Shown here piece by piece: positions 17,919 to 24,566 of a stretch of DNA of 41,442 bases (the stretch's first letter is position 1; every line of letters begins with the position of its first letter). Made by a program: the position numbers and the translations under genes. Below the pieces are notes generated by a model. That model made no database searches and was not told where the DNA came from. It was given only the letters and a program-made list of their open reading frames with translations. Origin of the DNA: Fibrobacter sp. UWR4. GTDB taxonomy: Bacteria > Fibrobacterota > Fibrobacteria > Fibrobacterales > Fibrobacteraceae. The stretch is taken from the NCBI RefSeq assembly GCF_003149045.1, contig NZ_QGDU01000031.1:1-41442 (forward strand), written 5' to 3'.

Positions 17919-18173
17919 GCGCGGACTAGTATGAATCTTTGCAAAGTGTGTGATTCATACTAGGATTTGGTCTCTGCTACGGGGGTGCCCTTGGTGGGCG
18001 TAGTATGGAAAATGGGAATTGTCTCTTTTCATACTAGTCCGCGCAGGGAGTGGTGTTTGCTAGTAGAATGAATCTTTGATAATACAACTATTCATACTAG
18101 GCCTACACCGGATAGGTCTTGTGCGGGGTGAAAAACGTAGTATGAAAATGAGCGTTTGCGAGGATTAGTACTA
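17919..18173. repeat. 255-bp direct repeat, copy A (downstream of the nuclease gene)
   Basis: It matches 19094-19348 over 255 bp with about five substitutions and no gap. It is internally palindromic. CTAGTATGAATC pairs with GATTCATACTAG. An outer pair, GCGCGGACTAGTATGAA against TTCATACTAGTCCGCGC, closes a ~120-nt structure. A second hairpin uses AATGAAT with ATTCATACTAG, and the core word TAGTATGA or its complement recurs about eight times. No ORF is evident. It is either a non-autonomous mobile element or a structured RNA. Confidence 0.9.
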
Positions 18174-18197
18174 GTCTCTTCTATAAGCCCCTTTCCC

Positions 18198-19010
18198 TTA
18201 CAAAAGATATTCCTTCGCAATTTGCTTTGCTTGAATCGGGCTTAAAGGCTGCTTGCCTGTTTCTAAAGAAATAATCAGATTTCTCCCGAGAACGTATCCG
18301 TCATTCAGATAGTAGTACATTTTTCTGACGGTTTTTTCTGCATAGGAATCTCTGTCTAGCATGCCAAAATGTTCCCACACGATTTCCTCTCCCGTTCGGA
18401 TATTTAGGCAGGTGAAATCTGGATATATAGTGATGCCGTTGATTGTATGAGGACATTCATAGCGAAAAGGAATTTTAAGCTGGTCCAAAGTGTCTGCGAT
18501 GAATGCTTCTGATTTAGATCTGACACGCAATCCGCAATTTGCGAAGTACTCGAAATCTCCATCAAGAAATGTTTTTCTCGTGTAGTCCTTGCTGAGCCAA
18601 TCTTCCGTGAACGTTTTCTTGTCGGGGCGGAATGGCGTGATCATTCTTTTTCGTAGAGACGGTATCTTGTTGGATATTTCATCGAGGTGAGTTTTTTCGA
18701 CGGCCTTTACTAAGGGATGCATCAATTTTTGAATTGTCCTAAGCGATGTCAAAAGTGTTTCGTCGTATTCTTTCTGGGCGAGTTTCTTTACGTCGGCAAG
18801 ATGTTTCTTATTGAGGTAAACTCCGTTGGAATATTTCTCCAGCACATGATAAAAACGAGGGATTTTATTTTTCCCTTGCTGCATCACGCGCAAATATCCC
18901 TCGGGGGCTTTCTTCAATGATCTTGTTTTTTCATTGCAAAGCTTGTTTATCATAGAGAGTTGTTTTTGTAGTTCCAATAGGAAATCGTTTGATAGTAGTG
19001 ATTTGAACAT
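18198..19010 (-). CDS. PD-(D/E)XK-like nuclease family protein, flanked by long direct repeats
   Basis: 270 residues. The N-terminal half is helical and Lys-rich, possibly a coiled coil and DNA contact. The C-terminal half looks like a restriction-endonuclease-type core: Glu in RSKSE (165-168), YPDFT (196-200) and the VWEHFGM block (Glu213), in the order E...D...E expected for PD-(D/E)XK enzymes. The remainder (YAEKTVRKMYYYLNDGYVLGRNLIIS) fits the last core helix and strand. I know similar uncharacterised proteins from Clostridia and Fibrobacter by pattern only. An AAGGAAG site precedes the ATG, with a dyad (19027-19041) at the promoter. The bracketing 255-bp repeats suggest the gene arrived or moves as a cassette. 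A defence role is possible but unproven. Confidence 0.65.
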   Translation of the reverse strand: MFKSLLSNDFLLELQKQLSMINKLCNEKTRSLKKAPEGYLRVMQQGKNKIPRFYHVLEKYSNGVYLNKKHLADVKKLAQKEYDETLLTSLRTIQKLMHPLVKAVEKTHLDEISNKIPSLRKRMITPFRPDKKTFTEDWLSKDYTRKTFLDGDFEYFANCGLRVRSKSEAFIADTLDQLKIPFRYECPHTINGITIYPDFTCLNIRTGEEIVWEHFGMLDRDSYAEKTVRKMYYYLNDGYVLGRNLIISLETGKQPLSPIQAKQIAKEYLL

Positions 19011-19026
19011 GAGGCTTCCTTTTATT

Positions 19027-19041
19027 GTGTATTCTATACAC
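19027..19041 (-). promoter_or_regulatory. Palindromic promoter/operator of the nuclease gene
   Basis: GTGTAT-TCT-ATACAC is a perfect 6-bp dyad 17 bp upstream of the start codon. The minus strand contains TATAGAAT within it, so a regulator bound here would cover a possible -10 region. This arrangement would suit autoregulation or repression of a potentially toxic nuclease (inference). Confidence 0.45.
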
Positions 19042-19093
19042 GCTTTTTTCCCTCGGTTTGTTCAAAGTTTTTTTGTAAAAAATATTCTACAGC

Positions 19094-19348
19094 GCGCGGA
19101 CTAGTATGAATCTTTGCAAAGCGTGTGATTCATACTAGGGTTTTGTCTTTGCTACGGGGGTGCCCTTGGTGGGCGTAGTATGGAAAATGGGAATTGTCTC
19201 TTTTCATACTAGTCCGCGCAGGGTGTGGTGTTTGCTAGTAGAATGAATCTTTGATAATACAACTATTCATACTAGGCCTACACCGGATAGGTCTTGTGCG
19301 GGGTGAAAAACGTAGTATGAAAATGAGCGTTTGCGAGGATTAGTACTA
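19094..19348. repeat. 255-bp direct repeat, copy B (upstream of the nuclease gene)
   Basis: Same orientation and length as copy A. The differences lie mostly in the first 60 bases (for example AAGTGTGTG in A, AAGCGTGTG in B), while the last ~160 bases look identical. The remainder of the 437-bp gap 19011-19447 contains the nuclease promoter on one side. On the other side (19349-19440) are imperfect repeats of words such as GCCCGATGTTCT and GCCTGATGTTCT. Confidence 0.9.
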
Positions 19349-19825: not shown

Positions 19826-21157
19826 TTACGAACCGGCCTGCGGGGCTGCGTCCTGAGTTACAATTTGCGGGGCGGCGTCCTGAGTTACAATTTGCGGGGC
19901 TGCGTCCTGAGTTTCAATTTGCGGGGCTGCGTCTTGAATGTTGTTTACTTGAGGGGACGTTCGTGGTGCGGCGTCCTGCGGGTTAGTGCCCTGCGGGTTG
20001 GCGTTCAAATGCGCGGCGTCCTGCAGCGCTGTTTCCTGCGGGGCGATGCCTTGAAGGACGGGAAAATCCTGGCGATATTTTTTTAGCGGTTCCAGATGGA
20101 CTTGACCGCGGATGATTTCTTCTGCGGAATCGCTGCCGGAGGCAATGACATTTCCCAGCGGGTCGATAAGCATGGACGTACCGGCCAGCTGTTTCGTGGG
20201 GTTACATTCCGAGGGGGAGACTCCGTTGACGGCGGCGATATACACCTGATTCTCGATGGCTCGAGCCCGTAGGAGAGTTTCCCAGTGGGCCTTCCTGACT
20301 TTGGGCCAGGCAGCCTGAACCGTAATGAGGTTGGCGCCCAACTTGACTGCGTCGCGGAACAGCTCCGGAAAACGCAGGTCGTAACAGATGACGGAAGCGA
20401 TTTTCCAGTCGCCTATTTCGAATAAAGTAATAGAGTCGCCAGAGGCAAAACCGCGGTTTAATTCCGGGAAGAAGGGGTGGACCTTGTCGTAGGCGCTCAC
20501 GGCACCGTTTCCGCCAGGCACAAATACTGCGGATCGATTGCGCAGTGCGGGGGAGGTTTCATCCTGCGCTGCCTCGCCGTTCCTTTTGGCGGAAACTTTT
20601 GCAATCCCCGCGCCAAACACGATGTCGCCTGTTTCGTTTGCCAACTGTTGCAAAAACTCTGCAGTCCCGCCGACGTTCCCATCTGCATTCCGCTCGACGC
20701 CATCTGCAGCCAACCCGCAATCTTCTGCATTCCGCCCGATGTTACTAGCGGCCAGCCCGTTGCAATCACCAGCCGTCACTTGGCTATCAAAATCTTCTGC
20801 GTATTTTTCGGGCTGCTGCGGAATATACCCGACGTCAAACATTTCCGGCAGTACAATCAGGCGGGGACACTTGCATCCCTCAGCCGACCTGACGCCACTT
20901 GCAGTCATCCCGCAACAGCCAGCGTCCAGCCCGACATCACCAGCGTCCATCCCGCGACAACCAGCGTCCAATCTGCAGTCACCCTCAGCCAACCTGGTAT
21001 CGTCTGCGTCCAACCTGACGCCACTTTCTGCTTCCCCGCGACTATTCGCGTTCAGCTCGTAGGCCCCCGCGGTTTGTAGCAGGGTTTTGACCTTGGCGAA
21101 ATTGGCGGTCTTTTCGCTTAAAAGGGATTCCATTTGGACGAGAATGATGTCTAACAT
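19826..21157 (-). CDS. Carbon-nitrogen hydrolase (nitrilase/omega-amidase-like) with three repeat expansions
   Basis: 443 residues against about 260 for YafV/omega-amidase relatives. The catalytic triad is visible: Glu in VLPEMFDVGY, Lys in YDKVHPFF and Cys in SVICYDLRFPELFR. The extra length comes from repetitive inserts. A 7-residue-period block before the catalytic Glu includes DAGDVGLDAGCCGM. A second 7-residue-period block (GLAASNI, GRNAEDC, GLAADGV) follows the MFDVGY loop. A C-terminal tail has a 9-residue period (TQDAAPQIV). All three can be read as surface-loop or tail expansions, so the core may still fold. Substrate is unknown; omega-amidases act on alpha-ketoglutaramate. It leads a two-gene minus-strand unit. 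Confidence 0.8.
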   Translation of the reverse strand: MLDIILVQMESLLSEKTANFAKVKTLLQTAGAYELNANSRGEAESGVRLDADDTRLAEGDCRLDAGCRGMDAGDVGLDAGCCGMTASGVRSAEGCKCPRLIVLPEMFDVGYIPQQPEKYAEDFDSQVTAGDCNGLAASNIGRNAEDCGLAADGVERNADGNVGGTAEFLQQLANETGDIVFGAGIAKVSAKRNGEAAQDETSPALRNRSAVFVPGGNGAVSAYDKVHPFFPELNRGFASGDSITLFEIGDWKIASVICYDLRFPELFRDAVKLGANLITVQAAWPKVRKAHWETLLRARAIENQVYIAAVNGVSPSECNPTKQLAGTSMLIDPLGNVIASGSDSAEEIIRGQVHLEPLKKYRQDFPVLQGIAPQETALQDAAHLNANPQGTNPQDAAPRTSPQVNNIQDAAPQIETQDAAPQIVTQDAAPQIVTQDAAPQAGS

Positions 21158-23587: not shown

Positions 23588-24310
23588 GTGAAACAACTTG
23601 CTTTAATTTTTTTGGCCCTGGTTGGGTTTTGCTCCGCCCATCCTACGGACAGCCTGTTTGTTCCGCCGAAGCCTGCGGAACCCAAGCGCTTTTGCGAAGA
23701 GGTTCAACGCTGGATTGCCTACGCCGAAAAAAGCAAGGACCTGGTGGAAATCACCCACATGGACGGGCTCCGCATGGACTTACGTTACGGGACTTTTAAC
23801 AACGTAACGGGTCACGATTTGTACTGCGGGGAACAGCGGGCATTTGTCCGCAAGGAAGCTTTCGCAATGCTTCAGAAAAGCATTGCCTACATGAAGAAAA
23901 CCATGCCGGGTTCAGTGCTGGTAATCTTCGACGCTTCCCGCCCGATATACGCTCAGGCGGCCCTCAAGAAAACCGTCCAGGGCACCGCCTACTCCGCCTA
24001 TGTTTCGTCCCCCGTGAAAGGCGGTCTCCATAATTTCGGGCTAGCTCTGGACCTGTCCATTACCGACGAAAACGGCAACCTTCTGGATATGGGCACCGAT
24101 TTTGACTCCTTTGAACGTTGTGCTGGATCCGTAGGGGAGGCAGACGCCTTGAAGTCGGGCCGTCTCACTCAGGAACAAATCGCCAACCGCAATAAACTGC
24201 GCCGTGTCATGGGCCGCGCGGGATGGGTTCCGCTAGGTAGCGAGTGGTGGCATTTTAACGCCTATACCCGCGCCTATACCTACGAAAATTTCCCGAAATT
24301 CCCGCTCTAA
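23588..24310 (+). CDS. D-alanyl-D-alanine dipeptidase-like protein (peptidase M15D, VanX/DdpX type)
   Basis: 240 residues starting with GTG 23588, 3 bp after the receptor stop. The signal peptide is QLALIFLALVGFCSA. Zinc-ligand and catalytic motifs of the VanX family are present: DASRPIYAQ (conserved Arg), GLHNFGLALDLSI (His and Asp ligands) and EWWHFNAY (catalytic Glu and His ligand). It would cleave D-Ala-D-Ala in the periplasm. In Gram-negatives such enzymes recycle wall peptides rather than confer glycopeptide resistance. No VanH/VanA genes are nearby, so a resistance role is not supported. Confidence 0.85.
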   Translation: MKQLALIFLALVGFCSAHPTDSLFVPPKPAEPKRFCEEVQRWIAYAEKSKDLVEITHMDGLRMDLRYGTFNNVTGHDLYCGEQRAFVRKEAFAMLQKSIAYMKKTMPGSVLVIFDASRPIYAQAALKKTVQGTAYSAYVSSPVKGGLHNFGLALDLSITDENGNLLDMGTDFDSFERCAGSVGEADALKSGRLTQEQIANRNKLRRVMGRAGWVPLGSEWWHFNAYTRAYTYENFPKFPL

Positions 24311-24319
24311 TTTGCCATA

Positions 24320-24475
24320 TACCCCTCGCGACGCCACCTGACGCCCAAAAGATGCCACCTGACGCCCATCATATATTCTATAATTTGTAACGAAATGTTT
24401 AAGATTCGTCTTGTGGTCGGCGACGCCCCCTCCTGACGCTGGTGTGACGACCCCTCCTGACGCTGTAGTCTTTTT
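24320..24475. repeat. Short imperfect repeats in the rfbD upstream region
   Basis: The 255-bp gap 24311-24566 contains GACGCCACCTGACGCCCA and GATGCCACCTGACGCCCA back to back (about 24330-24368). Next come GACGCCCCCTCCTGACGCTG and GACGACCCCTCCTGACGCTG (about 24422-24467). The word CTGACGCC recurs in the expanded part of the nitrilase-like gene. A TATAAT at 24379-24384 lies between the two repeat pairs and may be the -10 of rfbD, though no strong -35 is seen. Confidence 0.6.
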
Positions 24476-24500
24476 CGGCGGCTCTGGAACGAGACTGCCG

Positions 24501-24520
24501 ATGCTGACCTTCGTCAGCAT
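24501..24520. repeat. REP-like hairpin before rfbD
   Basis: ATGCTGAC-CTTC-GTCAGCAT is a perfect 8-bp stem with a CTTC tetraloop and no T-run. It lies 46 bp upstream of the rfbD start. This is a typical repetitive extragenic palindrome shape. It could attenuate or stabilise the leader transcript. Confidence 0.6.
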
Positions 24521-24566
24521 GACTGTGGCATGACGGGGGGACGGACGATGACAAATTGGAGAGAAT

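Follow-up and report, generated by a model that had tools for sequence, protein, structure and literature searches.

A PD-(D/E)XK-like nuclease gene of Fibrobacter and its cognate arrays of phased palindromic sites: a candidate mobile, co-evolving system

The window, a stretch of 41,442 nucleotides from Fibrobacter sp. UWR4, carries a small nuclease-like gene bracketed by two long, nearly identical repeats, and raises the question of whether gene and repeats belong to one system and, if so, of what kind. The two direct repeats (17919-18173 and 19094-19348; no strand assigned) are 255 nt long, 98% identical and spaced 1175 nt apart. Both are non-coding and strongly self-complementary, with fold z-scores of -6.1 as DNA and -5.3 as RNA. 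The ORF between them (18198-19010, minus strand) encodes a 270-aa PD-(D/E)XK-like protein, and immediately upstream of it is a palindrome, GTGTATTCTATACAC (19027-19041, no strand), a possible operator that is also found upstream of the homologue in the nearest relative, G040. All of these elements had been described in an earlier note made from the sequence alone, and the repeats and operator-like palindrome are present as it described them. The cassette lies between queA and a convergent 121-aa gene, and its neighbours encode QueA, a WYL regulator, a carbon-nitrogen hydrolase and the 121-aa protein, which is of unknown function. The hydrolase reading frame (19826-21157) contains repeats of its own, 27-bp near-perfect tandem repeats and degenerate repeats of about 42 bp (19839-19937 and 20689-21059).

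Each 255-bp repeat is an array of four dyad sites (TAGTATG...CATACTA or variants). In the left array these are at 17927-17962, 18001-18036, 18064-18099 and 18138-18173, with the word TAGTATGAA and with the third and fourth sites partly degenerate; in the right array they are at 19102-19137, 19176-19211, 19239-19274 and 19313-19348. Within each repeat the dyad centres are 74, 63 and 74 bp apart, or 7, 6 and 7 helical turns. At full length the repeat has no third copy in the 3.6-Mb draft genome and is absent from 79 other genomes of the genus, where the only match is a partial one of 47 bp in G031. The earlier note had looked to further 255-bp copies beside nuclease homologues; no full-length copy was found elsewhere in the genome, but the homologues mostly have arrays of a word of their own.

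No Pfam or NCBIfam family matches the protein. An alignment query of contigs detected 572 or more homologues, in Fibrobacter, Treponema, Lachnospiraceae and Clostridia, where a single-sequence query of the same contigs gave no match; the best 80 of these more than 570 relatives come from Fibrobacter, Treponema, Butyrivibrio, other Lachnospiraceae and Clostridia. Related nucleases thus number in the hundreds among gut bacteria, and Butyrivibrio hungatei and Treponema bryantii are examples of culturable carriers. The family is multicopy, with matches in 51 of 168 genomes of the phylum, nearly all within the genus, and up to about eight per genome, while many genomes of the genus have no detected homologue. 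Across 69 homologues the residues R164-S-K-S-E168 and E185 are invariant, and P197-D198-F199 and E213-H214 are nearly so (D198 and E213 at least 90% conserved), so that an active nuclease is to be expected. The AlphaFold model (pLDDT 94) has an N-terminal helix, a beta-hairpin (residues 39-56), a long helix and a C-terminal nuclease part that weakly matches the PD-(D/E)XK folds of DrdV, R2 endonuclease, XisH and Vsr (best E 0.05). E168, D198 and E213 form the conserved acidic constellation of the superfamily within this core fold, albeit with weak fold E-values, and the conserved motif together with the model bears out the nuclease assignment of the earlier note. Viral contigs and plasmids gave domain-level matches plus one match of 84% coverage, and cargo of a phage or plasmid was rejected as an explanation on these grounds. 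The single longer match is in a 4.2-kb faecal 'bacteriophage' contig (MT839528.1), where a homologue of 84% length and 31% identity lies at 380-1081.

Most genes for homologues adjoin arrays of inverted-repeat sites, with one word per locus. The words differ between loci: TAGTATGAA here, and TAGTGCAAA, TAGGACTAAA, TTACATACTA, GGGGCGTATAAA, GTACCTATAAA and others elsewhere. The word of a half-site, about 6-10 bp long, is specific to the lineage and generally closes with a run of A; a pair of inverted half-sites covers about 36-42 bp. At least two dyads of the same word were found near the gene at 88 of 120 loci of the genus, and in the shuffle control, made in a closely similar scan, none of the shuffled upstream regions exceeded one dyad. 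The corresponding figures for loci from other phyla were 39 of 53, against 0/53 after shuffling; the same-word dyad scan did not detect arrays at the remaining 32 and 14 loci, respectively. The arrays usually lie just upstream of the gene, and for many homologues only one side of the gene has an array. Long flanking direct repeats, mostly of different sequence, occur at just five loci (the present one and those in G040, G027, G019 and G063), and it is at these that the gene is flanked by two cognate palindromic units. Direct repeats were accordingly rejected as the key feature; the general feature is the array of same-word sites. At two loci (L038 in G043 and L041 in G010) the upstream array is expanded as tandem copies of about 201 bp with two dyads each, which suggests that arrays may also grow by tandem duplication.

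The more alike two of the proteins are, the more alike their words tend to be (rho 0.26, permutation maximum 0.09); all pairs above 85% protein identity share their word, while paralogues within one genome have the same word in only 3% of pairs. The word follows the protein lineage, not the genome. The distribution of arrays was similar in outcome, a genome with the cognate nuclease being one in which the nuclease was among the loci fetched. All seven genomes in which a GGACTA nuclease was detected had arrays of AGGACTAA, as did 5 of the 73 others (p=2.5e-7). For arrays of TTACATAC the counts were 12/12 genomes with the cognate nuclease and 6/68 others (p=3e-10), and the word of G040 occurs 13 times in that genome and not at all in six others. 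The palindromes co-evolve with the cognate gene and their abundance tracks it. That the word is specific to the locus and follows the protein lay beyond the reach of a reading of a single window. The earlier note had also named chance association as what would undo its proposal; arrays of their own accompany most homologues, and gene-less arrays of a given word are almost confined to genomes with a matching nuclease, which speaks against chance. Protein and arrays very probably belong together as a pair.

Relatives with different words can be told from those with the same word by residues 43, 45, 47 and 62, which lie within or beside the beta-hairpin. K47 differs in 97% of different-word and 7% of same-word close pairs, which are not independent of one another. 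After redundancy was removed, K47, R41 and Q45 still ranked high, with K47 (0.254) below the 99% permutation limit of 0.294; L218, in the nuclease domain, exceeded that limit (0.358). A tie between the beta-hairpin residues and the choice of word is suggested by these values, and suggested only. At one locus of G040 (L319, G040:C8:54465), a single dyad with the word of the window, TAGTATGAA, stands beside half-sites nearer to the G040 word, and is perhaps a relic of an older specificity.

The spacing of the sites bears on whether they act as DNA or as RNA. Dyad centres tend to stand 53, 63, 74, 84, 95 or 105 bp apart, and so onward. Among loci of the genus the best period in a scan of 8-14 bp was 10.50 bp (R=0.896, n=143; random 99.9% limit 0.27), and it was 10.55 bp outside Fibrobacter (R=0.826, n=96) and 10.50 bp in mostly gene-less arrays fetched by word pattern (R=0.92, n=80). 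Removal of duplicates left R at 0.86. The p-values for phasing assume independence, which makes them too low, but the effect is strong and was replicated; the shuffles and Rayleigh tests likewise ignore shared ancestry, and many of the compared genomes are incomplete drafts or MAGs. With multiples of 10.5 bp between their centres, the sites are probably read as double-stranded DNA on one helix face, not as RNA. The earlier note had offered a nuclease with a structured RNA; in such a module the palindromes would be transcribed hairpins, of a guide-like or type III antitoxin-like kind. The strong predicted folding and the position of the hairpins, mostly upstream of the gene, would fit such a module, but it would not account for spacing locked to 10.5 bp, for short words kept while loops and spacers diverge, or for arrays that exist alone, often in convergent regions. 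Rfam covariance models gave no match; on this ground and that of the phasing the structured-RNA reading was rejected, and we attach very little probability to it.

Arrays of the same words are also dispersed through intergenic regions, gene-less and far from any homologue. Exact dyads numbered at most 31 per genome and word, a lower bound since exact-word matching undercounts them. The gene-less arrays are commoner between convergent genes (18/43, against 10/73 in the control; p=0.0013), and one in G031 apparently lies beside dnaA (gene named by eye). Some are common to orthologous sites of different species. At one such locus, in four comparisons, words were conserved at 0.83-0.96 and loops and spacers at 0.46-0.74; at a second locus the values were 0.67 and 0.57. 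Pooled over the five valid ortholog comparisons, 236 of 273 word positions were identical and 685 of 1168 in loops and spacers, a mis-oriented pair (L183/L190) having been left out. The better conservation of words argues for continuing use of the gene-less arrays. Other repeats were seen in the same genomes. A separate dispersed repeat of about 30 bp (L324 2356-2412 in G040, and many places in G031, with more than a dozen matches there) is apparently unrelated to the arrays, and a palindromic repeat, TTTGAGGGGCGCTGAAGCGCCTCCTCAA, in G040 and G029 (L319 1194-1287 and 1364-1457; L175) is perhaps another repeat family.

Comparison with G040 shows where the arrays differ in position. At its queA site G040 carries an array of its own word with no nuclease gene; that gene lies 5 kb away, within another array-gene-array cassette, and the intergenic site of the window orthologous to that cassette (24310-24554, no strand) has neither array nor gene. 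Between G000 and G040 the nuclease shares 58% identity and the neighbouring QueA 96%. Arrays from three sites in G040 are copies of one another over their full length (0.75-0.97 identical) but only about 0.6 identical to the orthologous arrays here; likeness between arrays goes with the genome and not with the locus. At the orthologous site in G000, G031 and G029 one more G040 array is missing. Arrays therefore appear to have been copied or converted within a genome. Neither a target-site duplication nor an exact insertion joint could be found, the intergenic regions of the available species having diverged too far for a joint to be defined. Two further suggestions of the earlier note, MITE-like elements with a captured gene and a cassette bounded by recombining repeats, came close: arrays occur both alone and with the gene, and there are orthologous sites without them.

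Taken with the pairing of word and protein, these patterns lead us to favour, with reasonable confidence, a mobile, co-evolving system of a sequence-specific PD-(D/E)XK protein and its cognate arrays, REPtron-like but with an unrelated enzyme; that its mechanism is one of movement we hold to be probable. The gene product would be a sequence-specific DNA-binding nuclease, and the 255-bp repeats arrays of its cognate sites. The N-terminal beta-hairpin (residues 41-47) is the probable means by which the protein would bind its own arrays, where it would then nick or cut. Through repair or recombination between arrays, further intergenic sites could receive copies of an array, at times together with the gene, and the arrays of one genome could be homogenised. 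A gene entering an array would give an array-gene-array cassette, which might collapse to a single array, much as LTR elements leave solo LTRs.

The nearest rival to this mobile reading is a DNA-architecture system serving the host, in which the protein forms a cooperative nucleoprotein on chromosomal arrays (for topology, segregation or insulation, especially between convergent genes) and movement of arrays is incidental. It is favoured by the excess of arrays between convergent genes and by phasing on one helix face, which fits cooperative binding. Words in gene-less arrays at orthologous sites are also conserved above their spacers, and to a degree across species divergence that exceeds what is expected of neutral mobile relics; this counts against our preferred explanation. 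An architectural role sits poorly with conserved catalytic residues, with the coexistence of different-word paralogues in one genome, with the many genomes of the genus that have no detected homologue, and with full-length array copies where relatives' sites lack them, and we consider it unlikely. A defence or toxin module, in which incoming DNA is the target of the nuclease, or the nuclease is a toxin, and the arrays repress its promoter and titrate or license it, seems less likely still. Arrays just upstream of the gene are what autoregulation predicts, and in PADLOC the C-terminal domain, and that alone, resembles the end of the candidate defence models PDC-S68 (E 1e-23). These models run to about 1200 positions, however, of which only the last 130 or so match, and nothing in them corresponds to the N-terminal half. 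At this locus the nuclease gene has no methylase, antitoxin or defence gene beside it, and gene-less arrays occur far from any homologue. Type II restriction-modification was rejected, a cognate methyltransferase being absent among the neighbours.

The proposed mobile system can be compared with known ones. REPtrons pair a RAYT/TnpA_REP enzyme with REP palindromes, and share with it extragenic palindromes and a cognate enzyme gene flanked by them (PMC2817692, PMC8266576). Lineage-specific sites that co-evolve with the enzyme, an abundance that tracks the cognate gene, and fast evolution of the enzyme gene are further likenesses. The enzyme here is of the PD-(D/E)XK type, whereas RAYT is an HUH/Y1 transposase; the phasing of the dyads implies that duplex DNA is recognised, whereas the REP processed by TnpA_REP is single-stranded; and sites number in the tens per genome (a lower bound), against usually more than 100 for REP. 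Neither Pfam transposase models nor an HUH/Y1 tyrosine transposase domain matched any of 69 homologues, and since that enzyme is the defining test of the family, the system is not a REPtron. REPINs and MITEs, too, are short non-coding units with palindromic ends that are copied within a genome and do not carry the gene (PMC3116915). The units here comprise two to several phased dyads over about 100-500 bp and have no detected target-site duplication, and no known transposase family, as in a MITE or insertion sequence, was seen among the locus neighbours or in Pfam and NCBIfam searches of the homologues. Free-standing homing endonucleases are encoded by small genes at or within their recognition site and missing from the orthologous site of relatives. 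The present gene likewise lies at or within a presumed recognition site and is absent at the orthologous site in relatives; it differs in lying outside any intron or intein, in having many dispersed sites per genome, and in words that change with the protein.

Full-text searches of partial coverage (few subscription journals and no bioRxiv) found no description of this nuclease/array system, which looks like an undescribed one. The chances are about even that it represents a large unnamed class of bacterial elements, selfish or domesticated, in which a small PD-(D/E)XK protein with a hairpin-set word maintains and copies phased arrays around the chromosome, with several distinct word/protein pairs per genome. 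If this is true, a second class of enzyme, besides HUH transposases, would lie behind dispersed extragenic palindromes in bacteria. The dozens of natural word/protein pairs would then constitute a naturally diversified protein-DNA recognition code, and a data set for learning how a compact domain recognises DNA, and the persistence of the arrays would bear on whether such repeats serve the host or themselves.
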